Translations under genes and position numbers: made by a program
DNA from: Rhodospirillales bacterium
GTDB lineage: Bacteria > Pseudomonadota > Alphaproteobacteria > ATCC43930 > CGMCC-115725
Direction: 5' to 3'
NCBI GenBank assembly: GCA_027315365.1
Contig: DAHUYF010000146.1
Coordinates: 1 to 64,000, forward strand
Length of the DNA: 64,000 bases
Part shown: one piece after another, positions 6,631 through 48,272 of the stretch
How the letters are laid out: each line of letters begins with the position of its first letter
How positions within the stretch are numbered: position 1 is the stretch's first letter
The notes under the pieces: generated by a model
Databases searched by the model: none
The model's input: the letters and a program-made list of their open reading frames with translations, nothing else
What the model was told of the DNA's origin: nothing

Positions 6631-6653
6631 CGCTCACACTCCTCAAGCCGGTC

Positions 6654-13484: not shown

Positions 13485-13556
13485 CGGACGATCCTCCCGG
13501 ACGCGAGTGTGCCGCGCGCGGGATCGCCGGCGCAAGCCGGGGCGGCGGGTGCATCG

Positions 13557-14312
13557 TTACCCTTCCGTCGGGGCGCCCGCCCATTCCGGGGTCGCGAGGC
13601 CGCCGACATAGGCGGAGACCACCCGGCGGTCGGCGATGAGCGCCTTCGCTTCGCCCTGCGCCGTGATGCGGCCGTCTTCGAACACGACACCGCGCCCGGC
13701 GAAGCGAAGCGCGGCGCGCGCATTCTGCTCGACGACCAGGACGGCGAGCCCGGTGCCGAGCAGCGAGGCGAGCGAGGCGTAGAGCTCGGCGACCACCCGC
13801 GGCGCGAGCCCGGTCGAGGGCTCGTCGAGCAACAGCAGGCGGGGCTCGCCCATGAGCGCGCGCGCGATCGCGACCATCTGCTGCTCGCCGCCCGAGAGAT
13901 AGCCGCAATGCGTGCGGCGCAGCGCTGCGAGCTTGGGGAAAATCCCGAACATGCGCTCGATCCGCTTCCGGCGCTCGGCCGGCCGCGCGCGAGCCGCCCC
14001 CATCTCCAGATTTTCGTCGACGCTCATGCCTGGAAAGAGCTGGCGGCCTTCGGGCGCGTAGCCGATGCCGAGGCGCGTGCGATGATAGGTGGGAAACCGC
14101 GCCAGCGTCCTGCCCTCGAACGCGATCTCGCCGCCGGTGAGCGCGATCTGCCCCATGATGGCGCGCAGCAGCGTCGACTTGCCGGCGCCGTTCGCGCCGA
14201 CGACGGCGAGCGTTTCGCCGCGGGCGAGCGACAGGTCGATGCCGTGGAGCACCGCGACCTCGCCGTAGCCGGCGCGGACGCCTTTGAGCGACAGGATCTC
14301 AGGCGGCGCCAT
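13557..14312 (-). CDS. livF: Branched-chain-type ABC transporter ATPase, LivF-like
   Basis: A 251-residue ATPase of a HAAT-type importer. Motifs: Walker A GANGAGKST, IGYAPEGRQLFPGMSV (the LivF-specific Q-loop region), signature LSGGEQQM, Walker B LLLLDEPSTGL, then VEQNARAAL. It overlaps the LivM-LivG fusion gene by 14 bases. Liv-type systems import branched-chain amino acids, but also amides, aromatic acids and other carboxylates; the catabolic neighbours suggest the latter. Confidence 0.9.
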   Translation of the reverse strand: MAPPEILSLKGVRAGYGEVAVLHGIDLSLARGETLAVVGANGAGKSTLLRAIMGQIALTGGEIAFEGRTLARFPTYHRTRLGIGYAPEGRQLFPGMSVDENLEMGAARARPAERRKRIERMFGIFPKLAALRRTHCGYLSGGEQQMVAIARALMGEPRLLLLDEPSTGLAPRVVAELYASLASLLGTGLAVLVVEQNARAALRFAGRGVVFEDGRITAQGEAKALIADRRVVSAYVGGLATPEWAGAPTEG

Positions 14313-16029: not shown

Positions 16030-16898
16030 ACCCGCCCGACCCGGCCGAGCAGGCCCTGCGGGCGGAAGATCAGGACGCCGATGAACACGACATAGACGAC
16101 CGCGCTCGCCGCGTTCGAGCCGAGGTAATACTGGGTGAAGACCTCGGTGAGCCCGAGGAGCTCGGCGGCGAGCCAGGCGCCGGGATAGTTGCCGAGGCCG
16201 CCCAGCGCGATCAGCGTGAAGGCCTGCACCGTGAGATCGCCGCCGGTCGAGGTCTGGAAGGGGATGAGCGAAATCACCAGCGCGCCGGCGCCGCCGGCCA
16301 TAGCGGAGCCGAGCGCGAAGGCGAGCGTCCGGATGCGGCGGATATTGAGGCCGCAGCTCGCCGCTCCGAGCGCGGATTGGGCGGTGGCATGCACCGATTT
16401 GCCGGTGATGGTCCGGGTGAGCCAGACATGCACGAGAAGCGCCACGCCGAAGGCGAGGAGCGAGCAGACCAGCAAGCCTTCCGGCACGGCGATCGGTCCG
16501 GCCTGAACCGCGCCTTGCAGGAACGGGATCGACTGGAACTGCGATCCCCAGAGCAGGAAGCTCGCATTGGCGACGACATAGGACAGGCCGAAGGTGGCGA
16601 GCAGGGTGCGCAGCTCGCCCTCCGGCCCTTGCGCGGTGATCTGTTCCAGCACGCCGAGCTGAACCGCCATGCCGATGAGGAAGAGCAGCCCCGCCGCGAT
16701 CGGGAAGGCCGCGATCGGCGTCAGTCCGCCGCGCTCGAACAGCGAGAAGGCGAGCAGGCCGCCGAGCACGATGAAGTCGCCATGCGCGAGATTGACCACC
16801 TTCATGACGCCGTAGATCAGATTGAGCCCTTCGGCCATGAGGAGATAGACCCCGCCCCACAGCAGGCCGAGGACGCAGAGTGTGGCAAAGGTGATCAT
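16026..16898 (-). CDS. livH: Branched-chain-type ABC transporter permease, LivH-like
   Basis: A 290-residue inner-membrane permease with eight or so hydrophobic segments. MAEGLNLIYGVMKVVNLAHGDF near the N-terminus is the LivH hallmark, and IALGGLGNYPGAWLAAELLG near the end is the coupling region. It pairs with the LivM half of the fused neighbour. It lies 66 bases after livK and overlaps the fusion gene by four bases. Confidence 0.9.
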   Translation of the reverse strand: MITFATLCVLGLLWGGVYLLMAEGLNLIYGVMKVVNLAHGDFIVLGGLLAFSLFERGGLTPIAAFPIAAGLLFLIGMAVQLGVLEQITAQGPEGELRTLLATFGLSYVVANASFLLWGSQFQSIPFLQGAVQAGPIAVPEGLLVCSLLAFGVALLVHVWLTRTITGKSVHATAQSALGAASCGLNIRRIRTLAFALGSAMAGGAGALVISLIPFQTSTGGDLTVQAFTLIALGGLGNYPGAWLAAELLGLTEVFTQYYLGSNAASAVVYVVFIGVLIFRPQGLLGRVGRV

Positions 16899-16964
16899 GG
16901 CGCGCCGCTCGGACCCGGCGGCGAAGCGCCCGAGGCGCGCCGCCGCCGTGCTCCGCTCATGCCC

Positions 16965-18167
16965 TCATTTCCACGCCGGATGCGGGATGATCGGCGTCGC
17001 CGTGGCCGCGCCTTCCGGCCAGACGAGCTGCTGCTTGCCGCCCTGCCATTGCAGCGCATAGCTGTTGTAGCCGATCTGGATGCCGGTCTTGTCCACCTGG
17101 AAATGGCCGGCCACCGTATCCTCGGAGGTCTGCAGCAGCGCGTCGCGGATCTTGGTCTGGTCGAGGCTGCCGACCTTGGCGACGGCGCCGGCGAGTACCT
17201 TGAAGCTGGCATAGGCCAGTGCCGCGTGATAGGTCGGCTGGCGCCCGAACTTGTCGGCGAATGCCTTGACGAAAGCGGGATTGCCCTTGGTGTGCAGCGT
17301 CGGGAAGTAGAGCGTGGTGCCGAACACGGCGTCGGCGGCGTCGCCGAGCGCCTTGTCGAATTCCGGCTCGACCGGGCCGATGCTGAAGGCGAACATCTTG
17401 GCGTCGATGTTCTGCGCCCGGGCGGCGCGCATGATGCCTTCGGAATCCGCGAGATATGTGGCGCCGACGATGATGTCGGGATGTGACTCGGCCGCCTTCA
17501 GCACGAGCGCGCTGAAATCGGTCGTGGTGTTGGCGTAGGATTCCTTGAAGACGACCTTGATGCCCTTGGCCGCCGCTTCCTTCTCGACGCCTTCGGCAAG
17601 CTGCTGCGGAAACTGCGTGTTCTGCACCAGCAGCGACAGCGTCTTGTAGCCCTTCTGCGCGGCGAGGTCGACGACCGGTACCATGTAGCGCGAGGTCTGC
17701 GTCATCGCCTGGATGAGATAGGGATACTTGCCGCCGAACGCCTCGATGTTGGCGGCGAGGCAGGGCATCACGCGCCGCGCGCGGTTGACGACGGGCGCTA
17801 CCGCCGAGGTGAGGTCGGTCTGGTAGGGGCTGAGCAGCAGGTCGACATCGTCGTCGGTGATCAGCTTCTGATAGAGCTGCACCGCCGTCGAGGGATTGCC
17901 CTGATCGTCGTACTTGACCAGGGTCACCGGACGGCCGAGCAGGCCGCCTGCCTGGTTGATCTCCTCGACGGCGAGTTCGTAGCCTTGCAGCTCATAGACC
18001 GCCGGCGGCGAATAGGGGCCGGTCTGGGTGATGGCCAGGCCGACCTTGATCGGCTCCGTGGCCGAGGCCCCCGGCGCTGCCGCCAGTGCCGTCGCCAGCG
18101 CTCCGGCGGCGACGGCGACAAGCCGCGCCGCGCGAGCGATCGATCTCCGTTGCAGCCCCTGGAGCAT
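16965..18167 (-). CDS. Branched-chain-type ABC transporter substrate-binding protein, LivK-like
   Basis: Periplasmic ligand-binding protein of the Liv-type importer, 400 residues. A signal peptide (RAARLVAVAAGALATALAAAPGASA) is followed by IKVGLAITQTGPYSPP and the type I periplasmic-binding fold. The ligand is not predictable. ATG 18167 has GGAGGAG about six bases upstream; the longer in-frame reading to 18413 would lack a signal peptide at its N-terminus. The 278-base upstream region holds a palindrome at 18274-18291 and a motif shared with other genes of this cluster at 18407-18431. Confidence 0.88.
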   Translation of the reverse strand: MLQGLQRRSIARAARLVAVAAGALATALAAAPGASATEPIKVGLAITQTGPYSPPAVYELQGYELAVEEINQAGGLLGRPVTLVKYDDQGNPSTAVQLYQKLITDDDVDLLLSPYQTDLTSAVAPVVNRARRVMPCLAANIEAFGGKYPYLIQAMTQTSRYMVPVVDLAAQKGYKTLSLLVQNTQFPQQLAEGVEKEAAAKGIKVVFKESYANTTTDFSALVLKAAESHPDIIVGATYLADSEGIMRAARAQNIDAKMFAFSIGPVEPEFDKALGDAADAVFGTTLYFPTLHTKGNPAFVKAFADKFGRQPTYHAALAYASFKVLAGAVAKVGSLDQTKIRDALLQTSEDTVAGHFQVDKTGIQIGYNSYALQWQGGKQQLVWPEGAATATPIIPHPAWK

Positions 18168-18273
18168 GTCGTCTCCTCCGTTCTTTCGGCCGGCCTCGAG
18201 GCCGTGCCGCCGCCCTGCCGCATGCCTTCTGCCCGTCGCGGTGGTCCCGGAGGGGAAGGCATATTTTTTCACA

Positions 18274-18291
18274 TGGCAAACGCTTTTGCCA
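18274..18291. promoter_or_regulatory. Perfect 7-bp-arm palindrome upstream of livK (possible operator)
   Basis: TGGCAAA (18274-18280) and TTTGCCA (18285-18291) are perfect inverted arms around CGCT, about 110 bases upstream of the livK ATG in an AT-richer stretch. The size fits a dimeric regulator such as LacI or IclR type. The IclR-family gene is immediately upstream. Function is inferred. Confidence 0.4.
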
Positions 18292-18406
18292 CGATATTCA
18301 ATAACGCGCAAGGAGATGATCGATCGGCCGGCGGAGAATCTGCGACGCGGCGCCGGGCGCCCGCTTCGGCGCCGGCCCGTGACCGGAGCACGCCGGGCAA
18401 GCCGGC

Positions 18407-18431
18407 GCGACATCTCACATCATCAAATCAT
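18407..18431 (+). promoter_or_regulatory. Shared motif GCGACAT-N9-TCAAATCAT upstream of livK
   Basis: GCGACAT (18407-18413) and TCAAATCAT (18423-18431) are separated by nine bases. The same arrangement with the same spacing occurs at 20867-20891, at the aldehyde dehydrogenase promoter, and a compressed form occurs at 20997-21014. It is a candidate binding site for the IclR-family protein encoded at 18446-19309. Confidence 0.4.
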
Positions 18432-18445
18432 GCCGCGGTGGCGGC

Positions 18446-19309
18446 TCACGCCTTGGCGCGTGCCACCCGCCGCTCGGCCCGGGTCTCGCCGGCGCAGCCG
18501 AGCTTGCGCGACAGCTCGGCGGCGATCTCGCGCACCTGCTGCGCCTTCTCCTGCAGCGCCTGGATGGACAGCCGCCAGATCGGTCCGGAAATGCCGATGG
18601 CGCCGGCGACCTCGCCGGTGAAATCGTGCACCGGCACGGCGACGCAGCGCGCCTCGGCGTCGAACTCGCCATCATCGAAGCCGATCCCGTTGCGCCGTAC
18701 CGTCTCCAGCTCGCGCCGCAGCGCGTCCGGCTCGACGATGGTTTTCGCCGTGAAGGCGCGGAACTCGTGGGTGCGGAGATAGCGGTCGAGCTGCTCGGAG
18801 GAGAAGGCGGCGAGCAGCACTTTGCCGAGCGCGGTGGAATGGGCGGGGCGGACGACGCCGACCTGGTCGGCCATCTGGAACATGCCGGTGCCGGCGGTCT
18901 TGGCCAGCACTATCACGTTGTCGCCCGACCGGACGGCGAAATGGCTGCATTCGCCGGTGAGCTGCGTCAGCTTCTCGAGCAGGGGCGTGGCGAGGCTCAC
19001 CAGTTCGATCTCGTTGAGCGCGCCGGCGGCGAGGGCGAAGAGATGGCGGCCGATGCGGTAGCGCTTGGAATCGCGGATCTGCTGGATATAGCCCAGCGAG
19101 ACCATCGTCTTGACCAGATGGAAGGTGGTGCTGTTGTGCAGTCCGACGCGCTTGCTGAGCTCGGCCAGGCTGATGCCGTCGCGGTTGCGGGCGACCTCTT
19201 CGAGAATGGCGAAGGCGCGTTCGAGCGACTGGATGCCGCCGCGCTCGCGCCCGCCTTCCGCGCCGGCCTCGTCGCGATCGGCACCCGCCGCCTTGTCCAA
19301 ATCCGCCAC
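18446..19309 (-). CDS. IclR-family transcriptional regulator
   Basis: A 287-residue DNA-binding regulator. The N-terminal winged helix (residues about 25-95) has IQSLERAFAILEEVARN and LAELSKRVGLHNSTTFHLVKTM. The C-terminal IclR effector domain includes PAHSTALGKVLLAAF and GIGFDDGEFDAEARCVAVPV, the region that binds a small carboxylate in characterised members. It sits between the Liv-type importer and the aldehyde dehydrogenase, both on the same strand, so it most likely controls this catabolic cluster. The effector is unknown. Confidence 0.9.
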   Translation of the reverse strand: MADLDKAAGADRDEAGAEGGRERGGIQSLERAFAILEEVARNRDGISLAELSKRVGLHNSTTFHLVKTMVSLGYIQQIRDSKRYRIGRHLFALAAGALNEIELVSLATPLLEKLTQLTGECSHFAVRSGDNVIVLAKTAGTGMFQMADQVGVVRPAHSTALGKVLLAAFSSEQLDRYLRTHEFRAFTAKTIVEPDALRRELETVRRNGIGFDDGEFDAEARCVAVPVHDFTGEVAGAIGISGPIWRLSIQALQEKAQQVREIAAELSRKLGCAGETRAERRVARAKA

Positions 19310-19355
19310 CTGTTCTGCCCCCGTCGCGTCCGGGCCAGTATAGCCCAGGGCGCGG

Positions 19356-20813
19356 CTATAGGTTAAATACCACCAGCCGCTCCTCCGTCATGTCGCGGAT
19401 GGCATAGCGCGGCCCCTCGCGGCCGATGCCGCTTGCCTTGATCCCGCCATAGGGGAGCTGATCGGTGCGCCAGGTCGACGTGCCGCCGAGAATGACGCCG
19501 CCCACCCGCAGCGAGCGGACGGCGCGAATCGCGACATCCAGAGACCGGGTGAAGACGCCACACTGAAGGCCATAGGCGCTGTCGCTGATCTGCGCGAAGA
19601 GCGGATCGAGGTCGCGATAGGGCTGCACCGTCACCACCGGCCCGAACACCTCATCGCAGACGACGCGCATCGTCGGCGCGACATCAACCAGCACGGTCGG
19701 CGCATAGAGCGCGCCCTCGCGCCGGCCGCCGGTCAGCACGCGCGCACCCTCGGCCGCGGCCTCGTCGACCCAGCTTTCGACCCGTCGGGCCGCGGCGGCG
19801 TCGATCAGCGTGCCGACATCGGTGCGCTCGTCGAGGGGGTCGCCCGTCCTGAGCGCGCGCACCTCGGCGACCAGGCGCTCGACGAAGCTCTCATAGAGCG
19901 TCTCGTGCACATGGACGTTCTGGACGGAGATGCAGCTCTGGCCGGCAAGCCGCATGGCGTTGCGGGCGCACAGCGCCGCCGCCTCGTCGACGACGGCATC
20001 CTCATGCACCAGGGTGGGGCCGTTGCCGCCGAGTTCGAGTGCCACCCGCTTCAGCCCGGCGGCCGCCCTGATCTCGGCGCCGACCCGGCTCGAGCCGGTG
20101 AAGCTGATGAAATCGACGCGGGGATCGCGCACCAGCGCCGGCCCGACCGCATGGCCGAACAGCAGGTTGACGGCGCCGGGCGGCGCCCCGGCCGCGGCGA
20201 AGAGCTCGACCAGCCGGCTCGCCACCCAGGGCGCTTGCGGCGGCGCCTTCAGCACGATGGCATTGCCGGCTGCCAGCGCCGGCGCGATCTTGTGGCAGGC
20301 GAGATTGAACGGCGCATTGAAGGGCGTGATGCCTGCGACCACGCCGACCGGGAAGCGCAGCAGGAGGGCGATCTTGCCGCTGCCCATCGGCGTGCCGTCG
20401 AGCGGCACGTGCTCGCCCTCGATGCGGATCGCCTCCTCGGCGGCGAACGAAAGGGTGTCTTGCGAACGCACCACTTCGGACCGGGAATCCTTGATCGCCT
20501 TGCCGGTCTCGCGCGCCATGATCCCGGCGATCTCTTCCGCCTGCCCGGCCAGCAGGCCGCCGACCCGGCGCAGCAGAGCGGCGCGCTCGTAGCCCGGCAT
20601 GGCGGCCATGTGGCGCCGCGCCGCCACGGCCGCGGCGAGCGCGTCGTCGAGGTCCGCGAGCGAGGAATCCGGCGCCCGCGCCACCGTCTCGCCGCGATAG
20701 GGATCGATGATGTCGCTTGCCGCGGTGCCGTCGCGCCAGGCGCCGCCGATCAGCATCCGCAGGCGCGCCGGACCGCCGGTGTGCGGGCGTTCCTCGGCTC
20801 GAGACTGTGCCAT
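19356..20813 (-). CDS. NAD(P)-dependent aldehyde dehydrogenase
   Basis: Oxidises an aldehyde to a carboxylate; 485 residues from the chosen start. The general base lies in ELGGNGP, and the catalytic Cys in GQSCISVQ. TPFNAPFNLACHKIAPALAAGN and FISFTGSSRVG are cofactor-domain landmarks. ATG 20813 is preferred because GAGG lies six bases upstream and the conserved LRMLIGGAWRDG follows. An ATG at 20873 adds 20 residues but overlaps the operator-like palindrome and lacks a ribosome-binding site. Sequence type resembles succinate-semialdehyde or lactaldehyde enzymes; the substrate is unknown. Confidence 0.9.
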   Translation of the reverse strand: MAQSRAEERPHTGGPARLRMLIGGAWRDGTAASDIIDPYRGETVARAPDSSLADLDDALAAAVAARRHMAAMPGYERAALLRRVGGLLAGQAEEIAGIMARETGKAIKDSRSEVVRSQDTLSFAAEEAIRIEGEHVPLDGTPMGSGKIALLLRFPVGVVAGITPFNAPFNLACHKIAPALAAGNAIVLKAPPQAPWVASRLVELFAAAGAPPGAVNLLFGHAVGPALVRDPRVDFISFTGSSRVGAEIRAAAGLKRVALELGGNGPTLVHEDAVVDEAAALCARNAMRLAGQSCISVQNVHVHETLYESFVERLVAEVRALRTGDPLDERTDVGTLIDAAAARRVESWVDEAAAEGARVLTGGRREGALYAPTVLVDVAPTMRVVCDEVFGPVVTVQPYRDLDPLFAQISDSAYGLQCGVFTRSLDVAIRAVRSLRVGGVILGGTSTWRTDQLPYGGIKASGIGREGPRYAIRDMTEERLVVFNL

Positions 20814-20866
20814 CGCGGCCTCGCGGGTCGGGCGGCGGGAAGCCGCGGAGGGATTGAGGTTATTAT

Positions 20867-20891
20867 GCGACATTGTCGCAGGTCAATTCAT
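20867..20891 (+). promoter_or_regulatory. Operator-like site at the aldehyde dehydrogenase promoter
   Basis: Contains the perfect palindrome GCGACATTGTCGC (20867-20879) and the longer motif GCGACAT-N9-TCAATTCAT, which matches the site at 18407 in sequence and spacing. On the minus strand a TTGACC -35-like element (20881-20886) and TAATAA (20860-20865) flank the palindrome with a short 15-base spacer, an arrangement where a bound regulator could act on RNA polymerase. Confidence 0.45.
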
Positions 20892-20996
20892 AATATCGCC
20901 TATTTCACGAGATGCACGACCGCGATTGCCGCGGGGAGCGATACGCAATTCCGTCCTCCTGCTCGTCACCGCCACGCGCGCCGGGGCTTGCCAAGT

Positions 20997-21029
20997 GCGA
21001 CATCATCAATTCATATGCGGATATATGAA
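20997..21029 (+). promoter_or_regulatory. Operator-like site upstream of the first flavoprotein gene
   Basis: Holds GCGACAT-N2-TCAATTCAT (20997-21014), a compressed form of the motif at 18407 and 20867. It overlaps an inverted repeat TTCATAT-N6-ATATGAA (21010-21029). It lies about 50 bases upstream of the ATG at 21078. Binding by the IclR-family protein is a guess from location and repetition. Confidence 0.4.
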
Positions 21030-21077
21030 ATAATGTCCCGCCTGCTCGCCAGGCGGGGCCGGCTTCGAGGACAAGAC

Positions 21078-22574
21078 ATGCTTCCGACGATGGTGGATGT
21101 GGTGGTGGTGGGTGGCGGCAACGCGGCGTTGTGCGCGGCGCTTTCGGCGGCCGAGCAGCAGGCGTCGGTGCTGGTGCTGGAGCGTGCGCCGGAGAGCGAG
21201 GCGGGCGGCAACAGCCGCTTCACTGCCGGCGCCATCCGCTGCGTCTATGACGGCGTCGACGATCTGCGCGCGCTCATGCCCGACCTCTCCGAGGAGATGA
21301 TCAAGATCACCGATTTCGGCCGCTACGGCGAGGACCAGTTCTTCGACGATATGGGCCGGGTCACCGAGTATCGCGCCGATCCTGACATGGTCGAACTGCT
21401 GGTGCGGCGCAGCCGCGAGACGCTGCGCTGGATGCGCGGTAAGGGCGTGCGCTTTGCCCCCATCTATGGCCGCCAAGCCTTCAAGGTCGACGGCCGTTTC
21501 AAGTTCTGGGGCGGGCTCACCGTCGAGGCGGTGGGCGGCGGCCCCGGCCTCGTCACCGCACTCACCGAGGCGGCGCAGAAGAACGGCGTCACCGTCGCCT
21601 ATGGCGCCCGCGCGCTCGGCCTCGTCGCCGATGATGCGGGGGTGCAGGGCGTGCGCGTCAAGCAGGCGGGCAAGACGCGCGAGGTGCGCTGCAAGGCGGT
21701 GGTGCTCGCCGCCGGCGGCTTCCAGGCCAATACCGAATGGCGCACGCGCTATCTCGGGCCCGGCTGGGACCTCGCCAAGGTGCGCGGCACCCGCTTCAAT
21801 ACCGGCGACGGTATCCGCATGGCGCTCGAGGTGGGCGCGCTTCCCTGGGGCAACTGGTCGGGCTGTCACGCGGTCGGCTGGGATCGCAACGCGCCGCCCT
21901 TCGGCGATCTCGCGGTGGGCGACAATTTTCAGAAGCATTCCTACCCCTTCAGCATCATGCTCAATGCAAGGGGCGAGCGCTTCGTCGACGAGGGCGCCGA
22001 TTTCCGCAACTACACCTATGCCAAATACGGCCGCGTCATTCTGAGCCAGCCCGGCCAGTTCGCTTGGCAGGTCTTCGACAAGAAGGTGCTGCATCTGCTG
22101 CGCGACGAATACCGCATCCGGCAGGTCACCAAGGTATCGGCGCCGACGCTCGAGGAACTCGTGCAGAAGCTCGAGGATGTCGACCCGGTCCAGGCGCTGG
22201 CGACGATCAAGGCATACAACGAAGCGGTCCGGCGGGAGGTCCCCTTCAATCCCAACGTCAAGGACGGGCGCGGGACGGTCGGGCTGGCTATCCCGAAATC
22301 GAACTGGGCCAACACCATCGAGGAGCCGCCCTTCGAGGCCTACGCCGTGACCTGCGGCGTGACCTTCACCTTCGGCGGCGTCAAGGTGACGACCGACGCA
22401 CAGGTGGTGGACACCGAGGGCGAGGCGATCGCCGGCCTTTATGCGGCGGGCGAGATGGTGGGCGGAATCTTCTACTTCAACTATCCCGGCGGCACTGGCC
22501 TCATGGCCGGCGCGGTCTTCGGCAAGATCGCCGGCGCCAGCGCCGGACGCGCCGCGACGCGCGCCAACCGCTGA
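21078..22574 (+). CDS. FAD-dependent dehydrogenase, tricarballylate dehydrogenase (TcuA)-like
   Basis: A 498-residue flavoprotein of the fumarate reductase/succinate dehydrogenase family. The FAD-binding N-terminus is MVDVVVVGGGNAALCAALSA, and GGNSRFTAGAIRC resembles TcuA of tricarballylate catabolism. The C-terminal FAD signature IAGLYAAGEMVGGIFYFNYPGG is intact. TcuA works with the electron-transfer protein TcuB; no TcuB is in the window. ATG 21078 has GAGG upstream and sits a few residues before the nucleotide-binding fold. It is divergent from the aldehyde dehydrogenase and followed after 12 bases by another flavoprotein. Confidence 0.8.
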   Translation: MLPTMVDVVVVGGGNAALCAALSAAEQQASVLVLERAPESEAGGNSRFTAGAIRCVYDGVDDLRALMPDLSEEMIKITDFGRYGEDQFFDDMGRVTEYRADPDMVELLVRRSRETLRWMRGKGVRFAPIYGRQAFKVDGRFKFWGGLTVEAVGGGPGLVTALTEAAQKNGVTVAYGARALGLVADDAGVQGVRVKQAGKTREVRCKAVVLAAGGFQANTEWRTRYLGPGWDLAKVRGTRFNTGDGIRMALEVGALPWGNWSGCHAVGWDRNAPPFGDLAVGDNFQKHSYPFSIMLNARGERFVDEGADFRNYTYAKYGRVILSQPGQFAWQVFDKKVLHLLRDEYRIRQVTKVSAPTLEELVQKLEDVDPVQALATIKAYNEAVRREVPFNPNVKDGRGTVGLAIPKSNWANTIEEPPFEAYAVTCGVTFTFGGVKVTTDAQVVDTEGEAIAGLYAAGEMVGGIFYFNYPGGTGLMAGAVFGKIAGASAGRAATRANR

Positions 22575-22586
22575 ACGCGGGCGCCG

Positions 22587-24089
22587 ATGGCCGCGGACGT
22601 CGCGCAAGAGACGTTCGATGTCGTCGTGGTGGGCGGCGGCGGCGCCGGCCTCGCTGCCGCGATCGAAGCGCGCACAGCGGGACGCAGCGTGGCGCTCCTC
22701 GAAAAGAACCCCGCGCTGGGCGGCTCGACCGCCTGGTCGATCGGATCGATCACCGCCACCGGCACGCCGCATCAGCGCCGGCACGGCATCGAGGACAATC
22801 CGCACGACCACTGGGCCGACATGCCGTTCTTCGCCGAGCCGGGCTTGGCCGCGCGCGACAACGACGCGCTGCGGCGCATCCTCTGCGACGAGGTGCCGGA
22901 CGCAGTCCGCTGGCTGATGTCGTTGGGCGTGCGTTTCCATGGGCCGATGCCGGAGCCGCCGCATCGCCGGCCGCGCATGCACAATGTGCTGCCCAATTCG
23001 CGCTCCTACATCTTTCATCTCGAGCGCCGAGCCCGTCGCATCGGCGTCGATATCCGGCTCGGCCTGCGGGCGCGCGAGCTTCTCAGCGAGGGCGGCCGCG
23101 TCGTCGCTGTCGAATGCGCGCAAGGCGGTGCGCGACGGCGCTTCACCGCGCGCGGCGGCATCATCCTCGCCGCCGGCGACTTCACCAACGGCGCCGAGCT
23201 CAAGGCCCGCTACATGGGAGCGCAAGCGGCCAAGGTCGAAGCGGTGAACCCCACGGCAACCGGCGACGGCCATCTGCTGGCCTTGCCGCTGGGCGCACGC
23301 ATCCTCAACGGCGATCTCGCGCTCGGCCCGGAGGTCCGCTTCATCGCGCCGGCGCACGAGACCCTGGTCCGCCGGCTACCGCCCTGGCGGCTGCTCGCGA
23401 ACGTCATGCGCTGGTCGCTCGACCACATGCCGGCGGCGATCCTGCGGCCGTTCATGATGGGTTTTCTCACCACCGCGCTGGCACCGTCGCCGGCGCTCTT
23501 CGCCGCGGGCGCGCGGCTGATCAACCGCCGCGGAGAGCGCTTCTGCGACGAGCTCGATCGGCCGGCCCACGCGCTCCCCGATCAGCCGGAAAAGCTGGCC
23601 TACATCCTGCTCGACGGTCGCATCGCGCGGCAGTTCTCGGCCTGGCCGAATTTCGTCTCGACGGCGCCCGGCATCGCCTACGCCTATATCGGCGACTATC
23701 GGCGCAATCGCCGCGAGGTCTATCGCCAGGCTGCGACGCCCGAGGCGCTGGCGCGTGCGCTCGGCATGGACCCGGCGGCGCTGCGGCGCGCGCTCGGTGC
23801 GGTGACCGAGCGGCGCGGCGCCGATCATGCGCCGCCGCCGCTCGGCGAAGCGCCTTTCATCGCGCTCGGCCCGGTGCGCGCCGTCTTCGTCCACAATGAG
23901 GGCGGACTCGCCGTCGATCGCGAGCACCGCGTGCTCGACGGCGCCGACCGGCCGATCCCAGGGCTTTACGCCGCCGGCGCGACCGGCCAGGGCGGGCTAT
24001 TGCTGAAAGGCCACGGCCATCATCTCGCCTGGGCTTTCGTCTCGGGCCGCCGCGCCGGGCGGCTCGCCGCCGCTGCCTGCGGCTCTTAG
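22587..24089 (+). CDS. FAD-binding oxidoreductase, fumarate reductase / ketosteroid dehydrogenase-like
   Basis: A second, distinct flavoprotein of 500 residues. It opens FDVVVVGGGGAGLAAAIEARTAG, then GGSTAWSIGSITATGT, a loop typical of fumarate-reductase-type and 3-ketosteroid-dehydrogenase-type enzymes, and ends with IPGLYAAGATGQGGLLLKGHGHH. It is probably cotranscribed with the TcuA-like gene. Substrate unknown; the pair may act on successive unsaturated or saturated carboxylates. It converges on the cupin gene with a four-base overlap. Confidence 0.8.
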   Translation: MAADVAQETFDVVVVGGGGAGLAAAIEARTAGRSVALLEKNPALGGSTAWSIGSITATGTPHQRRHGIEDNPHDHWADMPFFAEPGLAARDNDALRRILCDEVPDAVRWLMSLGVRFHGPMPEPPHRRPRMHNVLPNSRSYIFHLERRARRIGVDIRLGLRARELLSEGGRVVAVECAQGGARRRFTARGGIILAAGDFTNGAELKARYMGAQAAKVEAVNPTATGDGHLLALPLGARILNGDLALGPEVRFIAPAHETLVRRLPPWRLLANVMRWSLDHMPAAILRPFMMGFLTTALAPSPALFAAGARLINRRGERFCDELDRPAHALPDQPEKLAYILLDGRIARQFSAWPNFVSTAPGIAYAYIGDYRRNRREVYRQAATPEALARALGMDPAALRRALGAVTERRGADHAPPPLGEAPFIALGPVRAVFVHNEGGLAVDREHRVLDGADRPIPGLYAAGATGQGGLLLKGHGHHLAWAFVSGRRAGRLAAAACGS

Positions 24090-24475
24090 ACCGCGATCGG
24101 AACTTCGTCGCTCACCGGCGTGGTGATGACGAGAAAGGTGAGCGGGCCGAGACCGGTGTTGTAGAGCGCATGCTCCACCCCCGGCGGGATGAAGATGAAG
24201 TCATGCCGGCGCACCACTTGGCGCTGGCCTGCGATCTCCATCAGGCCCTCGCCGTCCAGCACGTGATAGACCTGTTCCTGGATCTTGTGGGTGTGCGGCG
24301 CCACGTAGGCCTTCGGCTGGTATGTCGAAATGCGGTGATCGACGTGACGCGAGCCGGTGGTCTCGGGATGGACCAGCAGCTTCGACAGAGCGCCGCCGAA
24401 ATGGCCGGGCAGCTCGTCCCACGGCACTTCCGCGATGTTGCGGATCACGGCTTCGCGCTTCACCGTCCTGCTCAT
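24086..24475 (-). CDS. Cupin-domain protein
   Basis: A 129-residue single-cupin protein. Metal-binding histidines appear in APHTHKIQEQVYHVLDGEG (cupin motif 1) and HDFIFIPPGVEHALYNTG (motif 2). It could be a small isomerase, dioxygenase or ligand sensor. It is placed 26 bases after the TPP-enzyme gene and is probably in its operon. ATG 24475 (MSRTVKREAVIRN) is the natural start; longer readings enter the neighbouring gene in the wrong frame. Confidence 0.8.
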   Translation of the reverse strand: MSRTVKREAVIRNIAEVPWDELPGHFGGALSKLLVHPETTGSRHVDHRISTYQPKAYVAPHTHKIQEQVYHVLDGEGLMEIAGQRQVVRRHDFIFIPPGVEHALYNTGLGPLTFLVITTPVSDEVPIAV

Positions 24476-24501
24476 GGCACTCTCCTGTTCCGGCCGGCGT
24501 C

Positions 24502-26298
24502 TCAGTTTCCCGACGGCGCCTGCTGCACATATTTGCCGCCGAAGACCGGCTCCTTGTGCGGCGTCGGCGGCAGCGACCAGGTGCCGATCGCCGGCGGCCG
24601 GATGTTGGCGTCGACATGGACGTCGAGCAGGCAGGGCTTGTTGAGCTTGATCGCATGCTCGAGCGCGCCTTTGAAATCCTCGGATCGGGTGACGGTGATG
24701 CCCTCGACGCCGCAGGCGCGCGCCCAGGCGGCGAAATCGGGATTGTAGGGCTTGTTGTTGGGCCCTTGATAGAAGGCGGTGCCGAGCTCGCGACCGTTGA
24801 ACAGCCCGTATTGAATGTCGCGGATCGCCGCCCAGGAGAAATTGTTCCACACCACCCAGACGGCGGGGATGTCGTATTCGACCGCGGTGCACAGCACATG
24901 CGGCACCATGGTGAAGCCGCCATCGCCGCAGACCGCGACGCAAGGCCGGTCGGGCGCGGCGAGCTTGGCGCCGAGGATCGCGCTCGGCCCGAAGCCCATG
25001 CCGGAGAAGCCCCAGGTGTTGAGCATGGTCTGTGGCCGGCGCGCTTCCCAGAACTGCATGTACCAATTGTGGTGGACGCCGGAATCGAGCGACAGGATCG
25101 CATCGTCCGGCAGCACCGCGCGGCAATCGGCCACCACCCGCTCGGGCCGGAGCGGCGAGGCATGGATCTCGAAATTGGGCCGGGTATAGACGTCCCATTC
25201 CTCGCGCCAGCGCGCGATCTCGGCGTGCCAGGCGGCGAGGCGGCCGCCCTTTCTGACGGCGCGCCGCTCGATCTCGGCGAGCAGCTGGCGCAGGAAGGTG
25301 CGGGCGTCGGCGAGAATGCCGAGATCCGGCGTGTAGTTGCGGCCGAGCTCGGCATGGTCGACATCGACCTGGATGAGCTTGGTGACCGGAAAATTCCAGG
25401 AATATCCCGGCAGCCAGGAGGAGGAGGAGCGGTCGTCGAAGCGCGCGCCGATGGCCAGCACCAGATCCGCATGGCGACCCGCCTGGTTCGCGGGGAAGGT
25501 GCCGTTGCGGCCGATGAAGCCGAGCGACAGCGGATCGCCCATCGGCAGACAGCCCATGCCGTTGGGCGAGCTCAGCACGGGGATCTCGAGGAGACGGACG
25601 AGTTCGGTGAGCTCCGCGCTCGCCTCCGACAGCGCGACGCCATGGCCGATGAAGATCGCTGGGCGCTGGGCGGCGAGGATCATGTCGGCCGCGGTCGCGA
25701 CATCCTCGGGCGAGGCGCCGCTGCGGCGCGCGTTGAAGCCGTTCCAGACCGGTTCGAACTCGAGATCGGCCTCTTCCTGGAAGAGATTGAACGGCACGTC
25801 GACATTGACCGGGCCGGCGCGCCCGCTGGTCATCGTCGTCACCGCCTGGCGCAGCGCCAGCGGCAGCATGTCGACGCGCGAGGGCTGGAAGCTGCGCTTC
25901 ACCACCGGGCGGATGACGTTGGGGAAGTCCGCCTGATTATGCCGGTTCAGCTCCTGGAAGGGGCTGCGATTGAACTGCGAGGTCGGCACGTTCGCGGTGA
26001 TCGCCAGCAGGGCCGAGGAATCGGTCTGCGCCACCGCGAGCGCCATCACCAGATTGGCCGAGCCGGGGCCGCAGGAGGTGAGCGTCGCCACCGCCTCGTG
26101 CTTGACGCGGAAATAGCCGTCCGCCATGTGCGCGGCGGTCTGCTCATGGCGCGGCGAGACCAGCTTGATCTTGTCGCGGACGGCGTAGAGCGCGTCGAGG
26201 ATGCCGACATTGCCGTGACCGCAGATGCCGAAAATGTAGGGGATCTTCTCGCGGATCAGGAACTCGGCAATGAATTCCCCGCCCTTCATGCGCGCCAT
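24502..26298 (-). CDS. Thiamine-diphosphate-dependent enzyme, acetolactate synthase-like
   Basis: A 598-residue TPP enzyme with the three usual domains. The catalytic Glu is residue 52 in SPRHEQTAAHMADGY; TSCGPGSANLVMALA follows. The C-terminal TPP-binding GDG...NN motif is in VAVCGDGGFTMVPHVL through VWNNFSW. It is likely a decarboxylase or carboligase acting on a 2-oxo acid, not the biosynthetic acetolactate synthase (no small subunit nearby). ATG 26298 has GGGAGG upstream. A strong promoter lies at 26382-26410. Confidence 0.82.
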   Translation of the reverse strand: MARMKGGEFIAEFLIREKIPYIFGICGHGNVGILDALYAVRDKIKLVSPRHEQTAAHMADGYFRVKHEAVATLTSCGPGSANLVMALAVAQTDSSALLAITANVPTSQFNRSPFQELNRHNQADFPNVIRPVVKRSFQPSRVDMLPLALRQAVTTMTSGRAGPVNVDVPFNLFQEEADLEFEPVWNGFNARRSGASPEDVATAADMILAAQRPAIFIGHGVALSEASAELTELVRLLEIPVLSSPNGMGCLPMGDPLSLGFIGRNGTFPANQAGRHADLVLAIGARFDDRSSSSWLPGYSWNFPVTKLIQVDVDHAELGRNYTPDLGILADARTFLRQLLAEIERRAVRKGGRLAAWHAEIARWREEWDVYTRPNFEIHASPLRPERVVADCRAVLPDDAILSLDSGVHHNWYMQFWEARRPQTMLNTWGFSGMGFGPSAILGAKLAAPDRPCVAVCGDGGFTMVPHVLCTAVEYDIPAVWVVWNNFSWAAIRDIQYGLFNGRELGTAFYQGPNNKPYNPDFAAWARACGVEGITVTRSEDFKGALEHAIKLNKPCLLDVHVDANIRPPAIGTWSLPPTPHKEPVFGGKYVQQAPSGN

Positions 26299-26381
26299 GC
26301 CGCCGACCTCCCGATACGCCGCGTGCCCCGGCTCTCGCGGCGACGCCATCGGCGCGGAACGCGGCAGGGCCGTTCGGTCCC

Positions 26382-26410
26382 TTATAAAATTCTATATTGT
26401 GGCATGTCAA
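26382..26410 (-). promoter_or_regulatory. Near-consensus sigma-70 promoter for the TPP-enzyme gene
   Basis: On the minus strand, TTGACA (26410-26405), a 17-base spacer and TTATAA (26387-26382) point toward the TPP-enzyme ATG at 26298. It lies in the 312-base AT-rich gap 26299-26610 between this gene and the GST at 26611. On the plus strand the same gap has an extended -10 candidate, TGCTACAAT (26549-26557). I see no further gene in the gap. Confidence 0.6.
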
Positions 26411-26610
26411 CCGACGATATCAGAAAACGAGCGTCGAACCACTGGCGCCTCGGGCGTTGATTTGCCGAGAGAGCAGCAGCTTGGGCGGCCTTGCCGTGCC
26501 TGATCTTAAAAAATTAAGCGCTGTTGGAGGTTTTCATATTGAGAAATTTGCTACAATAATGTCGGATATGGGGCCGGCTGGATTGCCGGCTGCCGCCGAC
26601 AGAGAGTCTC

Positions 26611-27219
26611 ATGCCGCTGACGCTGCGCTATTCCCCGGCTTCGCCTTTCGTGCGCAAGGTGCTGGTGTTCGCCGACGAGGCGGGGCTGGCCGACCGCATC
26701 GAGCGGGTGGCGACCGACGTCTGGGCGCCGGACACCGACATCTTCCGCGACAATCCGCTCGGCAAGGTGCCGACGCTGGTGAGCGAGGACGGCACCTTCG
26801 TCGGCTCGCTCCTGTGCTGCGAGTATCTCGACAGCCTGCAGGCCGGGCGCCGGCTGATCCCGAGCGCGCCCGCTGAACGCTGGCCAGTGTTGCGGCGCCA
26901 CGCCCTCGCGGACGGCATCATCGAGGCCGCCGTCGCCTATGTGGTCGAGCAGCTCCGGCGGCCGCCGGCGTTCGTGCATCAGGGCTTTCTCGACCGCCAG
27001 GCGGACAAGATCCGGCGCGCGCTCGATGCTCTCGAAGCCCAGGCGGGCGCGTTCGGGCAGGGCGCCGATCTCGCGACCGTGACGCTGGGCTGCGCCTTGG
27101 GCTATCTCGATTTCCGCCTGCCCGCGCTCGACTGGCGGCGGGCGCGGCCGGCGCTCACGCACTGGGAGGCGGATTTCGGCGCGCGGTCGTCGATGGTTGC
27201 GACCCGGCCGCATCTCTGA
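26611..27219 (+). CDS. Glutathione S-transferase family protein
   Basis: A 202-residue GST. The thioredoxin-like N-terminus is LTLRYSPASPFVRKVLVFADEAGL (Ser-Pro-Phe-Val-Arg-Lys as in many bacterial beta- and zeta-like GSTs); the cis-Pro segment is NPLGKVPTLVSEDG, and the C-terminal domain is helical. It differs from the GST at 11968. It may add or remove glutathione from an intermediate of the cluster; inference only. The Gfo/Idh/MocA gene follows after 32 bases. Confidence 0.85.
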   Translation: MPLTLRYSPASPFVRKVLVFADEAGLADRIERVATDVWAPDTDIFRDNPLGKVPTLVSEDGTFVGSLLCCEYLDSLQAGRRLIPSAPAERWPVLRRHALADGIIEAAVAYVVEQLRRPPAFVHQGFLDRQADKIRRALDALEAQAGAFGQGADLATVTLGCALGYLDFRLPALDWRRARPALTHWEADFGARSSMVATRPHL

Positions 27220-27251
27220 CCTCAGGCAACCGCAAACAGGGAGTTCCATCG

Positions 27252-28226
27252 GTGATCAAGGCAGCGCTCGTCGGCACTGGCGATTGGGGCCAGCGGCTGG
27301 TGACATCGGTCCAGGGCAAGAGCGAGCTCATCCGCTTCACCGCGGCCGTCACCCGCACTCCGGCAAAGGGCGCCGGCTTCGCTCTCCAGCACGGGCTGAC
27401 GCTGCATGACGACTATCGCCGGGTCCTGGCGGATCCGACGATCGACGCGGTCGTGCTGGCGACGCCGCACAGCCAGCATGGCCGGCAGGTGATCGACGCG
27501 GCCGAAGCGGGCAAGCCGGTCTTCGTCGAAAAGCCGTTCACCCTGGACAAGGCGAGCGCCGCGGCCGCGGTCGAGGCCTGCCGCCGCCGGGGCGTCGTGC
27601 TCGCCTTCGGCCACAACCGGCGCTTTCTGCCGGCGGTGCAGGCGCTGAAGCGGATGGTCGAGGAAGGCCGCATCGGCAAGCTGCTTCAGGTCGAGGGTAA
27701 TTTCTCGTCGAGCTCGGGCTATCGCCACGGCCGCGAGTCCTGGCGCGCCAGCCCCAGCGAGGCGCCGGCTGGCGGCATGACCGCGCTCGGCATCCACGTG
27801 GTCGACGCCCTGATCCATCTCTGCGGCGCGGTCGAGCAGGTCCAGGCCAAAAGCCGGCACAACGTGCTGCCGATCGATGTCGACGACGCCACGACCATCC
27901 TGATGAGCTTCGCCAGCGGCGCCCTGGGCTATCTCGGCACCTGCTTCGCCTCGGCGCCCTATTGGCGCCTCCATCTCTTCGGCTCCGAGGGCTGGGTGGA
28001 AATGCACGGCCAGGAGACGCTGCTCATCGCCGGCCGCGACGGCCGGACCGAGGAGCGCAAATTCCCGCCGCGCGACATCGAGCGCGCCGAGCTCGAGGCC
28101 TTTGCCGACGCGATCGCCGGCCGCGCGGCGTTTCCCGTGCCGGCCGAGGAGGCGATCCACGGCGTGGCCGTGCTCGAGGCGATCGCCCGCTCGGCGCAAA
28201 CCGAGAGCGCCATGCCGGTCGCCTGA
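27252..28226 (+). CDS. Gfo/Idh/MocA-family NAD(P)-dependent oxidoreductase
   Basis: A 324-residue dehydrogenase. The N-terminal Rossmann motif is AALVGTGDWGQRLV; the family landmark EKPFTLDKASA contains the conserved Lys of the EKP motif. GGMTALGIHVVDALIHLCG contains the histidine of the active-site region. Substrates in this family are sugars, inositols and related polyols. Start GTG 27252 has AGGGAG upstream. It is likely cotranscribed with the GST. Confidence 0.88.
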   Translation: MIKAALVGTGDWGQRLVTSVQGKSELIRFTAAVTRTPAKGAGFALQHGLTLHDDYRRVLADPTIDAVVLATPHSQHGRQVIDAAEAGKPVFVEKPFTLDKASAAAAVEACRRRGVVLAFGHNRRFLPAVQALKRMVEEGRIGKLLQVEGNFSSSSGYRHGRESWRASPSEAPAGGMTALGIHVVDALIHLCGAVEQVQAKSRHNVLPIDVDDATTILMSFASGALGYLGTCFASAPYWRLHLFGSEGWVEMHGQETLLIAGRDGRTEERKFPPRDIERAELEAFADAIAGRAAFPVPAEEAIHGVAVLEAIARSAQTESAMPVA

Positions 28227-28321
28227 TCCGCGGAGGCCGGGGTTTCGTGCCCGAGCCGGCACAAAGCATTTTGCAACATCGAGATTCACGATACGTTCCG
28301 GCTGCGAGGTCGGAGCACCGC

Positions 28322-30127
28322 ATGGGCAAGCGCCTGAATCTTCAGTTGCAGCTGACCGGCTTACCCCGCCTCTCCGTTGGCTTTCCGGCAGTTGATCATG
28401 AACGTGTGCGTGAGCTGGCATGCGATGCACCGGAGCGCGACCGGTTGGGCTTCGCACGGACATTCGCGCACGCGATCGTTTGTGCGGCGTGGCGAGCACG
28501 GCAGATGCCGGCGGGGCCCGCGCCTCTCCCGCAAGCTCTCGAAGCCGTCGCCTTGTCCATCGAGGCGGAGCGCTGGGCCGAGCAGTTTGGCGAAGCCGCT
28601 GCCGAATGCGATTCGCGCTCGCTCGCGCATCTGATCGGCGCCGTCTATACGACGGCGCTGCCCGATCCCTACCGTGCATCGCACGGCGTCTTCTATACCC
28701 CGCCGGAACTGATCGACCGGCTTTTGACAATGGCCGAGGAGGCCGGCATAAGCTGGCGGACAGCCCGTGTTCTGGATCCCGCCTGCGGCGGCGGGGCGTT
28801 CCTGCTGGCGATTGCACGTCGGATGGTGGAGGCTCTGGCCGACACGGCGCCGACCTTCGTTCTGCAACAGCTCGGCGCTCGGTTGCGGGGCGTCGATATC
28901 GATCCCTTTGGCGCGTGGCTGGCGCAAACCATGCTCGAGGTGACGCTGCGCGACGTCGCGTCCGTCGCGCGCAAATCCGTCCCGCACATGGTGGAGTCGC
29001 GCGACAGCCTGGAACCGGGACTGATCGCCGAATCCGCCTACGATCTCGTTATCGGCAATCCGCCCTACGGTCGCGTCTCTCTGTCGGCGGAGCGTCGCAG
29101 CCGGTTCGCGCGGAGCCTTCACGGACATGCGAATCTCTATGGGCTCTTTACCGATGCGGCGCTGCGCTGGACGAAGCGGGGCGGGGTAATCGGATATGTT
29201 ACGCCGACCTCGATGCTGTCGGGGCTCTACTACAAATCCCTCAGGGCTCTGCTTGCGACCGAAGCGCCGCCGCTTGCCGTCAATTTCGTCAGCGAACGTG
29301 GGGGCGTATTCACCGGTGTGCTCCAGGAGACGATGCTTGCGACCTACCGGCGGGACGCGGTTGCGTGCGGTGGCACGGTTGGATTTATAGCGATCGGATC
29401 GCACGGCGCTCGCTGTTGCAAAGCGGGAAGGATATCGCTGCCGTCGCGTCCCGAGGCGCCATGGCTGCTGCCCCGGTCGGCCGATCAGGCGGGTTTCGTG
29501 CGCCGGCTTGGCGCGATGCCGCGCCGGCTTGCCGATTACGGCTACGGCGTCTCGACCGGCCCGCTCGTGTGGAATCGGTTCAAGACGCAGTTCCGCCGCG
29601 ACAGGGGGCCGGCGGCCTATCCAGTGATCTGGGCAGAGGCCGTGACCGCCGACGGCCGGTTCTCTTGGCGCAGCGAGAAACGCAATCATGCACCATGGTT
29701 CGTCGCCAACCGTCCCAAGGATGATTGGCTGATCGTCGATCGGCCGTGCGTGCTCTTGCAGCGAACGACGGCGAAGGAGCAATCACGCCGTCTGATCGCC
29801 GCTGAATTGCCCGTCGAGTTCATCCGTCGCTACAAGGGCGTCGCGATCGAAAATCACCTCAACATGGTGCGCGCGCTCGATCCCGGCCCGACGGTGCCGC
29901 CCGCGGTCATCGCTGCACTGCTCAACAGTGCCGTGGTCGACGAAGCTTTCCGATGTATCAGCGGATCCGTCGCCGTCTCGGCATTTGAGCTCGAGGAGTT
30001 GCCTCTTCCGTCGCCGCCGGTACTCGACAGATTGAGCAAATTGCTCAATGCCTCGGCACCAAGCGACAAAATCGAAGCGGTAATCTCGGCAGCCTACAAG
30101 CGAGACGACGCTGCCGGCGCTGCCTGA
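28322..30127 (+). CDS. Adenine-specific DNA methyltransferase (BsuBI/PstI-type R-M system)
   Basis: A 601-residue N6-adenine methyltransferase. The SAM-binding motif is DPACGGGAF (near residue 153) and the catalytic motif is NPPY (near 246). The C-terminal part is a target-recognition-like region (VEFIRRYKGVAIENHLNMVRALD). ATG 28322 has GGAG about eight bases upstream. The following broken gene is a BsuBI/PstI-family endonuclease, so this was half of a type II system, probably protecting CTGCAG if it keeps family specificity. Base composition and codon use look less GC-biased than the neighbours, in line with horizontal transfer. Confidence 0.85.
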   Translation: MGKRLNLQLQLTGLPRLSVGFPAVDHERVRELACDAPERDRLGFARTFAHAIVCAAWRARQMPAGPAPLPQALEAVALSIEAERWAEQFGEAAAECDSRSLAHLIGAVYTTALPDPYRASHGVFYTPPELIDRLLTMAEEAGISWRTARVLDPACGGGAFLLAIARRMVEALADTAPTFVLQQLGARLRGVDIDPFGAWLAQTMLEVTLRDVASVARKSVPHMVESRDSLEPGLIAESAYDLVIGNPPYGRVSLSAERRSRFARSLHGHANLYGLFTDAALRWTKRGGVIGYVTPTSMLSGLYYKSLRALLATEAPPLAVNFVSERGGVFTGVLQETMLATYRRDAVACGGTVGFIAIGSHGARCCKAGRISLPSRPEAPWLLPRSADQAGFVRRLGAMPRRLADYGYGVSTGPLVWNRFKTQFRRDRGPAAYPVIWAEAVTADGRFSWRSEKRNHAPWFVANRPKDDWLIVDRPCVLLQRTTAKEQSRRLIAAELPVEFIRRYKGVAIENHLNMVRALDPGPTVPPAVIAALLNSAVVDEAFRCISGSVAVSAFELEELPLPSPPVLDRLSKLLNASAPSDKIEAVISAAYKRDDAAGAA

Positions 30128-31182
30128 CGTCGAGACCATTCGCGAGCGGCTTCAGGTCATCTTCCCTGAGGGGACGCCCGAGCGGACGAGATGTACGAGC
30201 CTGGCCGCGGCGCGAACCATCTTCACGATGCTCTATGTCGGTGCGATCGAGGGGGGTGAATGGCTGGCGCCCAAATTCGTTTATCGGAGGGCAGCAGTCA
30301 GGCTGCCAAAACCAGCGACGCCGCCCGTGTCGCCTATCTCGCGGCCGTCGAGCGGCCAGGCACGCCCGAGCCGGCGGACCGGTGGTACAAGGAAAATACG
30401 CGCGAGTCGATCCGTGACGATACGCTGCGCTACGGGCTGGTGGCGATAGGCGCCGTTCTGGTGAAGTCCGATGTGCCGACTACGTCGAGGAAGGGGCGAT
30501 ACGTCTTGCACCGCGATCTGGCGGTCCTCTTCGATCCGGGTCTCGACGAGGCGGAATTTGACGCTGCTGCCGCGGCGTGGCGCGACAAACACCTGACGCG
30601 AAACGCGTTGGCAACCGTCCGGGTACTGCAGATCGCGGCGGCGGGCGCCGAGTCCAAGGTGCCCGTCGCCCTGCCGAACGGCGAAGTGCGGGTCATGGCT
30701 CCCGGACTTTCCTCGATCATCACCAAGGCCGTTGTCGAGGTGTTCGCGCCGCGATTTCTCATCAACCCGGCAGTTCCGTGGATTTCCGAAAGCGGAAAGA
30801 AGGTCGTCGAGAAGGACGACAAGCTGCTGAGGATCCTCGGCATTGAGATCAAGCCGAGAAGCTGCTGCCGGATGTCATCCTTGCTGATACCGGCGAGAGC
30901 GAGATTTTGTTCGTGTTCGTCGAGGTCGTGGCGACGGATGGGCCGATGCACGAGGATCGGCGGCGGCAATTTCTTGACATTATTTCGACCGCCGGTTTCA
31001 ATCCATCTCAGGCGCTCTTCCTCACGGCGTTTCGGAGCCGCGATCACCCGGCCTTCAAAAAGTCCGTTGCCAGCCTCGCATGGGGGTCTTTCGCCTGGTG
31101 CTTCTCTGAACCCGACCACCTGATCGCGTTCGACGGGGCGACACGCAGCCTACGCTACTTTGGCGGCGGCCCCGGACGATAG
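30111..31182 (+). pseudogene. BsuBI/PstI-family restriction endonuclease, broken by two frameshifts
   Basis: Three reading frames together spell one endonuclease. Frame A (about 30111-30288) gives IRERLQVIFPEGTPERTRCT and MLYVGAIEGGEWLAPKFVYR, the N-terminal helix-turn-helix domain. Frame B (about 30290-30855) gives QAAKTSDAARVAYL through KKVVEKDDKLLRILGIEI. Frame C (about 30858-31182) gives LLPDVILADTGESEI, FVFVEVVATDGPMHEDRRRQ and PAFKKSVASLAWGSFAW, the catalytic domain. Each step is explained by loss of one base. No ATG or GTG opens frame A, where ACG or CTG codons stand. The enzyme is almost certainly not made; sequencing error is the alternative. Confidence 0.85.
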
Positions 31183-31251
31183 GGCGACCATCCATAGTCT
31201 AAGCCCGGCGTTGATCGCTACTCCGCGGCGGCTCGGCGAAGAGCCCGCCGT

Positions 31252-31842
31252 TCAGTTCCGCGGTGCGTGCTTGCCGAGGATGCGCTGCAGCGTGCGGCGG
31301 TGCATCTTGAGCCGCCGCGCAGTCTCCGAGACGTTGCGGTCGCACTGCTCGTAGACGCGCTGGATGTGCTCCCAGCGCACCCGGTCGGCGGACATCGGGT
31401 CTTCCGGCGGCGGCGGCAGCAGCGCGTCGCTCGCCAGCAGCGCGCGCTCGACCGCATCGGCATCGGCCGGCTTCGGCAGGTAGTCGAGCGCGCCGGCCTT
31501 CACCGCCGCCACCGCGGTAGCGATGTTGCCGTAGCCGGTGAGCATGACGATGCGCGCGCCGGGCCGTGCCTTGCGCAGCGCCTTGACGATCTCGAGCCCG
31601 CTGCCGTCGGCCAGCCTGAGATCGACCACCGCGAAGGCCGGGGCGTTGGCGCTCACCGCTGCGATCCCGGAGGATACGCTGTCGGCGGTGGCGACGATGA
31701 AGCCGCGCCGCTCCATGGCGCGCGCCAGCCGCTGGCACAGCGGCGCGTCGTCGTCGACCAGCAGCAGGCTGCGCTCGGATTCCGGCCAGCCCTCGATCAC
31801 CGAGGGCGCGGCCATCGCCGGGGGATGCGTGTCGTCCATCAT
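31252..31842 (-). CDS. regA: Redox response regulator RegA/PrrA/ActR
   Basis: A 196-residue response regulator. The receiver domain has SLLLVDDDAPLCQRL, phosphoacceptor Asp near residue 74 (AVVDLRLADGSG) and LTGYGNIATAV. The C-terminal Fis-type helix-turn-helix is NVSETARRLKMHRRTLQRIL, almost invariant in RegA orthologues. It controls respiration, carbon and nitrogen metabolism in response to redox state. The ATG at 31842 overlaps the regB stop (ATGA), and GGAG lies upstream. The sensor gene precedes it in the same operon. Confidence 0.95.
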   Translation of the reverse strand: MMDDTHPPAMAAPSVIEGWPESERSLLLVDDDAPLCQRLARAMERRGFIVATADSVSSGIAAVSANAPAFAVVDLRLADGSGLEIVKALRKARPGARIVMLTGYGNIATAVAAVKAGALDYLPKPADADAVERALLASDALLPPPPEDPMSADRVRWEHIQRVYEQCDRNVSETARRLKMHRRTLQRILGKHAPRN

Positions 31843-48269: not shown

Positions 48270-48272
48270 TCC

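Follow-up and report, generated by a model that had tools for sequence, protein, structure and literature searches.

Organization of the locus

The window, by which we mean the whole 64,000-nucleotide stretch of DNA analysed here, is part of contig C146, which belongs to a draft genome of 4.97 Mb comprising 215 contigs and estimated at 99.25% completeness. It contains an adenine methyltransferase gene (M) and, following it, an endonuclease gene (R) of the BsuBI/PstI type that is broken as assembled. The features of the locus are collected in Table 1.

Table 1 Features of the M–R locus and its surroundings (window positions)
Feature	Position	Strand	Basis
Insertion of 17.7 kb, compared with a genome of the same genus; M and R at its right edge	13545..31245	.	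12703-13544 and 31246-33177 adjoin each other in L096 of G002
M, gamma-type N6-adenine DNA methyltransferase, 601 aa	28322..30127	+	Pfam, PDB sequence matches, invariant columns
R, N-terminal part with the beginning of the HTH domain	30108..30287	+	tblastn frame 3, 68% to L008; PF17728 positions 2-42
R, first frameshift joint, net -1 nt	30288..30289	+	frame 3 match stops at 30287, frame 2 starts at 30290, one residue absent
R, middle part: remainder of HTH domain and nuclease-domain positions 1-66	30290..30856	+	PF17728 46-136, PF06616 1-66; 69% to L008, 189 aa
R, second frameshift joint, net -1 nt	30853..30857	+	frames 2 and 1 overlap by one base, homologues continuous
R, C-terminal part, presumed PD-(D/E)XK-type catalytic residues, stop 31180-31182	30856..31182	+	PF06616, 67% to L008
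regA/actR, adjoining the M–R pair	31252-31902	-	

The methyltransferase

The methyltransferase frame had been described as intact in an earlier note on this DNA, and we find it so: M occupies a single open reading frame, in which all 87 columns that are invariant among 22 homologues are unchanged. The protein matches the Pfam families Eco57I (1.2e-13) and N6_Mtase (1.9e-10) as well as the PDB sequences of M.TaqI (2.7e-10) and M.BseCI (1.6e-9), and the motifs DPACGGGAF and NPPYG are legible in its sequence. M thus appears structurally whole and probably remains active in methylating adenine within the site of the pair. It is the sole copy in its own genome, where the one other match is weak (32% over part of M, on contig C177). 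In a homologous pair (PLXO01000078.1, L009:5001-6743), NVPF replaces NPPY and DPAAGGG replaces DPACGGG in M beside a full-length, one-frame R; that methyltransferase may be impaired, or that sequence may be faulty.

The endonuclease

In tblastn searches with intact homologues, R needs three frames, the C-terminal part being matched from about 30850/30856 to 31137. The identities of the pieces to the intact BsuBI/PstI-type homologue L008 are 67.9, 69.3 and 66.7% over 84, 189 and 96 positions, respectively, with an E-value of 2.6e-135, so that the resemblance across three frames is above chance. Profile searches return PF17728 at 3.7e-16, whereas PF06616 is split between frames and scores 1.2e-13 in one and 2.8e-17 in the other; in the C-terminal part PF06616 is covered from position 83 to 153 (30907-31179), and from 65 to 153 in the genome-wide search. 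The second joint lies directly upstream of an LPD...FVEVV stretch, which aligns, via L008, with the corresponding stretch of SdaI (PDB entry 2ixs) and whose residues would accordingly be the catalytic ones.

The start codon of R has been lost as well. ACG (30108-30110) occupies the position at which the homologues start, and the stretch that runs from the in-frame stop upstream of it to the conserved FPEG motif offers no ATG, GTG or TTG. Of the 18 intact homologues, 16 could be surveyed (L112 and L115 are unmatched by the search motif), and all of these start 22-26 codons before the end of FPEG(T), 15 with ATG and L015 with GTG or TTG. An in-frame ATG does occur further inside R, at 30228; its product would drop about 40 residues and then meet the first shift. 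The two single-base net shifts both fall within the short intervals in which the earlier note had placed them, and the absence of a normal start that it reported is borne out. No long homopolymer or tandem tract of the kind expected of a phase-variable restriction-modification system lies at either joint.

Both R domains are present above the cut-off, though divided between frames, and an N6-adenine methyltransferase is adjacent, whereas an expressible one-frame endonuclease with a start is absent from the assembled locus. Because of the three frames and the lost start, the pair is a member of the BsuBI/PstI family by descent and not a working system as assembled. With this family searched across the 99.25%-complete draft, the broken R is the only family copy in the genome, and neither another R nor a close M was found elsewhere. 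M is in this sense the orphan methyltransferase that had been proposed.

Genomic slot, composition and distribution

The two blocks that flank the insertion correspond to 802-1655 and 1654-3582 of L096, and the left one is a short-chain dehydrogenase gene. In another genome of the genus (G003) the slot left of regA/actR holds a different gene, M16-peptidase-like by eye, and in G001 the contig stops near the slot; neither the slot of G002 nor that of G003 contains M. This lineage-specific insertion is also absent from three genomes of other genera (L098, L099 and L103). Apart from the pair, it consists of a transport and oxidoreductase cluster. A frame of 889 aa at 19905-22574 (+) of the window has an FAD-binding domain confined to its second half; its N-terminal 365 aa match no Pfam family.

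The GC3 of M and R is 0.73-0.79, and that of 39 of the 49 called ORFs outside the pair is at least 0.85 (median 0.89). Since M and R fall below most other ORFs of the window in this respect, they seem to have arrived independently of their surroundings. Within the genus R and M each occur in one of four genomes, in both cases that of the window, the other three being 78-82% complete; across the order, R is found in five and M in six of 43 genomes. This distribution speaks against a conserved regulatory role of M, and the genus-wide conservation that marks a regulatory orphan of the Dam or CcrM kind is not seen, with M in one of four genus genomes.

Recognition site

By homology, the site of the pair is probably CTGCAG or a longer one around TGCA. 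The nearest solved structure, that of SdaI, belongs to an enzyme with the recognition site CCTGCAGG; as this site is longer, that of the family is not fixed as CTGCAG. In 358 kb of its own genome CTGCAG was seen 191 times against 202 expected (ratio 0.95), and at this level it is not avoided and gives no sign of long restriction, a result equally compatible with CTGCAG and with another site as the target of the pair. The observed/expected ratios are 0.82 and 0.79 in two genomes with an intact R (G039 and G005, 200 kb each). The contrast fits the direction expected of past restriction, although a comparison of three genomes that presupposes the site is not decisive. For E. coli RM13514, which carries a BsuBI/PstI cassette, an excerpt of the published report gives 98.8% of CTGCAG sites as methylated (PMC3893438).

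Conservation of R and reality of the lesions

Apart from its three lesions, R is well preserved. It keeps 61 of the 61 residues that are invariant in the 18 intact homologues, as well as 24 of 25 that are nearly invariant, while each of those homologues, when compared with the other 17, has lost between 0 and 7 invariant residues. Furthermore, R shows a higher identity to each of eight outgroups than the intact L008 protein does. Either R broke very recently, therefore, having been under selection until then, or the lesions are partly an artefact, and the word 'decayed', which had been applied to the system, overstates its condition. If about 20 substitutions had accompanied the lesions, the chance that none fell on the 61 codons would be about 0.08, assuming that 75% change the amino acid; for neutral decay it is thus slightly odd that two indels occur while no invariant site has suffered a missense change.

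The most serious alternative is that sequencing or assembly errors have split a truly intact R, in which case the pair would be a working restriction-modification system. The retention of every invariant residue would be expected in this case, the assembly is a draft in 215 contigs and both indels share size and sign. Nevertheless, three separate errors would be required, including a substitution in the start codon, and neither joint lies within a long homopolymer. The error rate can be gauged from 358 kb of the same genome, containing 32.0 kb of homologue-covered coding sequence. A scan with 620 start-to-stop coding-like queries raised six flags, of which four lie on the R joints (L009 and L010) and two coincide with presumed artefacts from a scan of the window. 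That scan likewise flagged six frame switches, two being the R joints; the candidates at 33313-33597, 6650-6868, 36231-36560 and 36634-37416 were judged from their position to be antisense or stop-to-stop artefacts. Beyond the two joints, no frame switch in the 32.0 kb was judged real, which makes an artefact less likely. Two randomly scattered switches would both land in R with a probability of about 0.001, and at the 95% upper error rate of the scan at least two errors in R have a probability of about 0.005. We consider the artefact unlikely, and the lesions are probably real.

The state of R in relatives, plasmids and viral contigs

The earlier note had proposed a search of relatives for an intact endonuclease, and such relatives exist: 18 intact BsuBI/PstI-type endonucleases were used in the comparisons above. 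Of 385 genomes sampled from the class, 14 match PF06616 and 13 match PF17728; the family count is 13, leaving out a doubtful genome (G301, E-value 4.8e-4, below the cut-off). Both R domains stand in one open frame in ten of these 13, and R is broken in three, namely the genome of the window, G226 and G312, with M in one open frame beside each. In G226 (L101, G226:C11, - strand, near 113851-114390), whose pair belongs to the same subfamily as that of the window, the catalytic core of R has been removed by an in-frame deletion, and the start, HTH domain and C-terminal tail are retained. In G312 (L100, G312:C39, about 48089-48654), a distant BsuBI/PstI-type R is interrupted by stops and a frameshift and has lost its core by deletion.

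With M as the query at 1e-40, ten of the 385 class genomes match; eight have a full-length one-frame R and two, those of the window and G226, do not. Six of 398 genomes in a phylum sample match M: that of the window, three with a full-length one-frame R and two distant ones (G093 and G141, where M is counted as a match that is not necessarily full length) in which no R match to the queries occurs within the 1.5-kb flanks of M. For the M match in G481, one scan reports a single TGA and tblastn over residues 67-598 shows none. Three sequences (L007, L011 and L017) stop at or before R, L007 probably being the M match reported in G016, and L012 is uncounted owing to two N's in R that alter the frame there. 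In a Pedobacter MAG (L013:6816-7373), an M of the subfamily has no BsuBI-type R in its flanks; it is followed by an unrelated frame of 186 aa that may encode a different nuclease.

Among full-length copies, the closest M found (63% identity) lies on a viral-collection contig (L174:2905-5308, IMGVR_UViG_3300047496_000262), where R is reduced to an open frame of 211 aa containing just the HTH domain. The lesions of the window are absent there, so this loss of R is judged independent. This contig was the only match when the viral collection was searched with M; the same collection searched with R of L008 gave none, and phage records searched with M at 1e-20 gave no match. A phage origin was set aside. 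The flanks on L174 give only a weak tail-sheath match (E-value 0.004), so the contig is putatively viral.

Since the lesions in G226, G312 and L174 differ, these cases are judged independent: the loss of R recurs in this family, with the frame of M staying open. The loci can be arranged as a series of steps, from point lesions (the window) through loss of the core with an open HTH frame (G226 and L174) to heavy erosion (G312). A joint reading of them, in which R is repeatedly disarmed along such a series and its HTH remnant is kept as a DNA-binding partner of the orphan M, is quite doubtful.

Discussion

A probable account of the locus is that a BsuBI/PstI-type pair was acquired horizontally, that three small lesions very recently put its R out of action, and that M is a whole but passive leftover. 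The pair would have entered the chromosome at a variable slot next to regA/actR, and R would later have lost its start codon and suffered two net deletions of one base each. M would go on methylating adenine in the site of the pair, and the host cell, released from restriction and addiction, would for now retain M without deriving a benefit from it. In type II systems, the loss of M before R is lethal. The first lesion must therefore fall in R in any case, and the probability that the later two also fall there by length alone (R 1.1 kb, M 1.8 kb) is about 0.14; three lesions in R and none in M do not require selection on M.

The opposite has been suggested, namely that selection keeps M after the loss of R, either because its methylation serves as an epigenetic signal or because it shields the cell from invading pairs that recognise an identical site. 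Infection with a similar system is plausible, since plasmids commonly carry this family: there are 92 plasmid records with M, 65 of them predicted to be conjugative, and 147 with R. The frame of M is also open at four of the four broken-R loci seen. In the window itself, the break in R is too recent for the state of M to be informative, and an intact M at such an age gives no evidence of selection for methylation. M was found in none of the three other genomes of the genus (78-82% complete), and genus-level conservation is given, in an excerpt of Blow et al. (2016), as 57% for orphan methyltransferases and 9% for those of restriction-modification systems (PMC4752239). A selected role for M seems to us very unlikely. 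That the fragments of R yield a useful protein, either a 287-aa middle frame from ATG 30260 or a frameshifted product, with a role in DNA binding or as a split nuclease, can hardly be credited: a G-rich stretch precedes this ATG and two other loci have an open HTH domain with no nuclease core, but in the window the first joint is inside the HTH domain and cuts PF17728 between positions 42 and 46, and in the C-terminal part neither ATG nor GTG nor TTG occurs from the upstream stop to the LPD motif, its first start being TTG 30907, past the motif.

Comparison with known systems

The probable, very recent disabling of R beside an M that would persist passively bears on the origin of orphan methyltransferases, which is disputed. 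According to an excerpt of Oliveira et al. (2014), solitary genes seldom arise by the degradation of complete systems (PMC4176335). If the lesions are real, the locus would be a fresh intermediate representing the first step of this degradation route that has been called rare, and with further cases such as G226, G312 and L174 the rate and order of R loss become measurable. One broken endonuclease alone is routine; the loss of R is an ordinary fate of such pairs, here caught unusually early.

With BsuBI/PstI-type systems, the pair shares the gene order of M then R, both R domains (PF17728 and PF06616) and the class of M, a gamma-type m6A enzyme. The end of M overlaps the start position of R by 20 nt, as in the BsuBI/PstI-type L008. 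Unlike these systems, R of the window has two frameshifts and lacks a start codon. The nearest solved structure by sequence to L008 is SdaI, a distant one (E-value 1.4e-17), and the match includes the PD...E stretch. The E. coli cassette mentioned above bears the same family name and has adenine methylated at CTGCAG, but it is intact and of another lineage. With orphan, or solitary, methyltransferases the common feature is an M with no working cognate R. Unlike those orphans that the excerpt of Blow et al. describes as often conserved within genera, M of the window is lineage-specific in the sample and still accompanied by a fresh remnant of its endonuclease.
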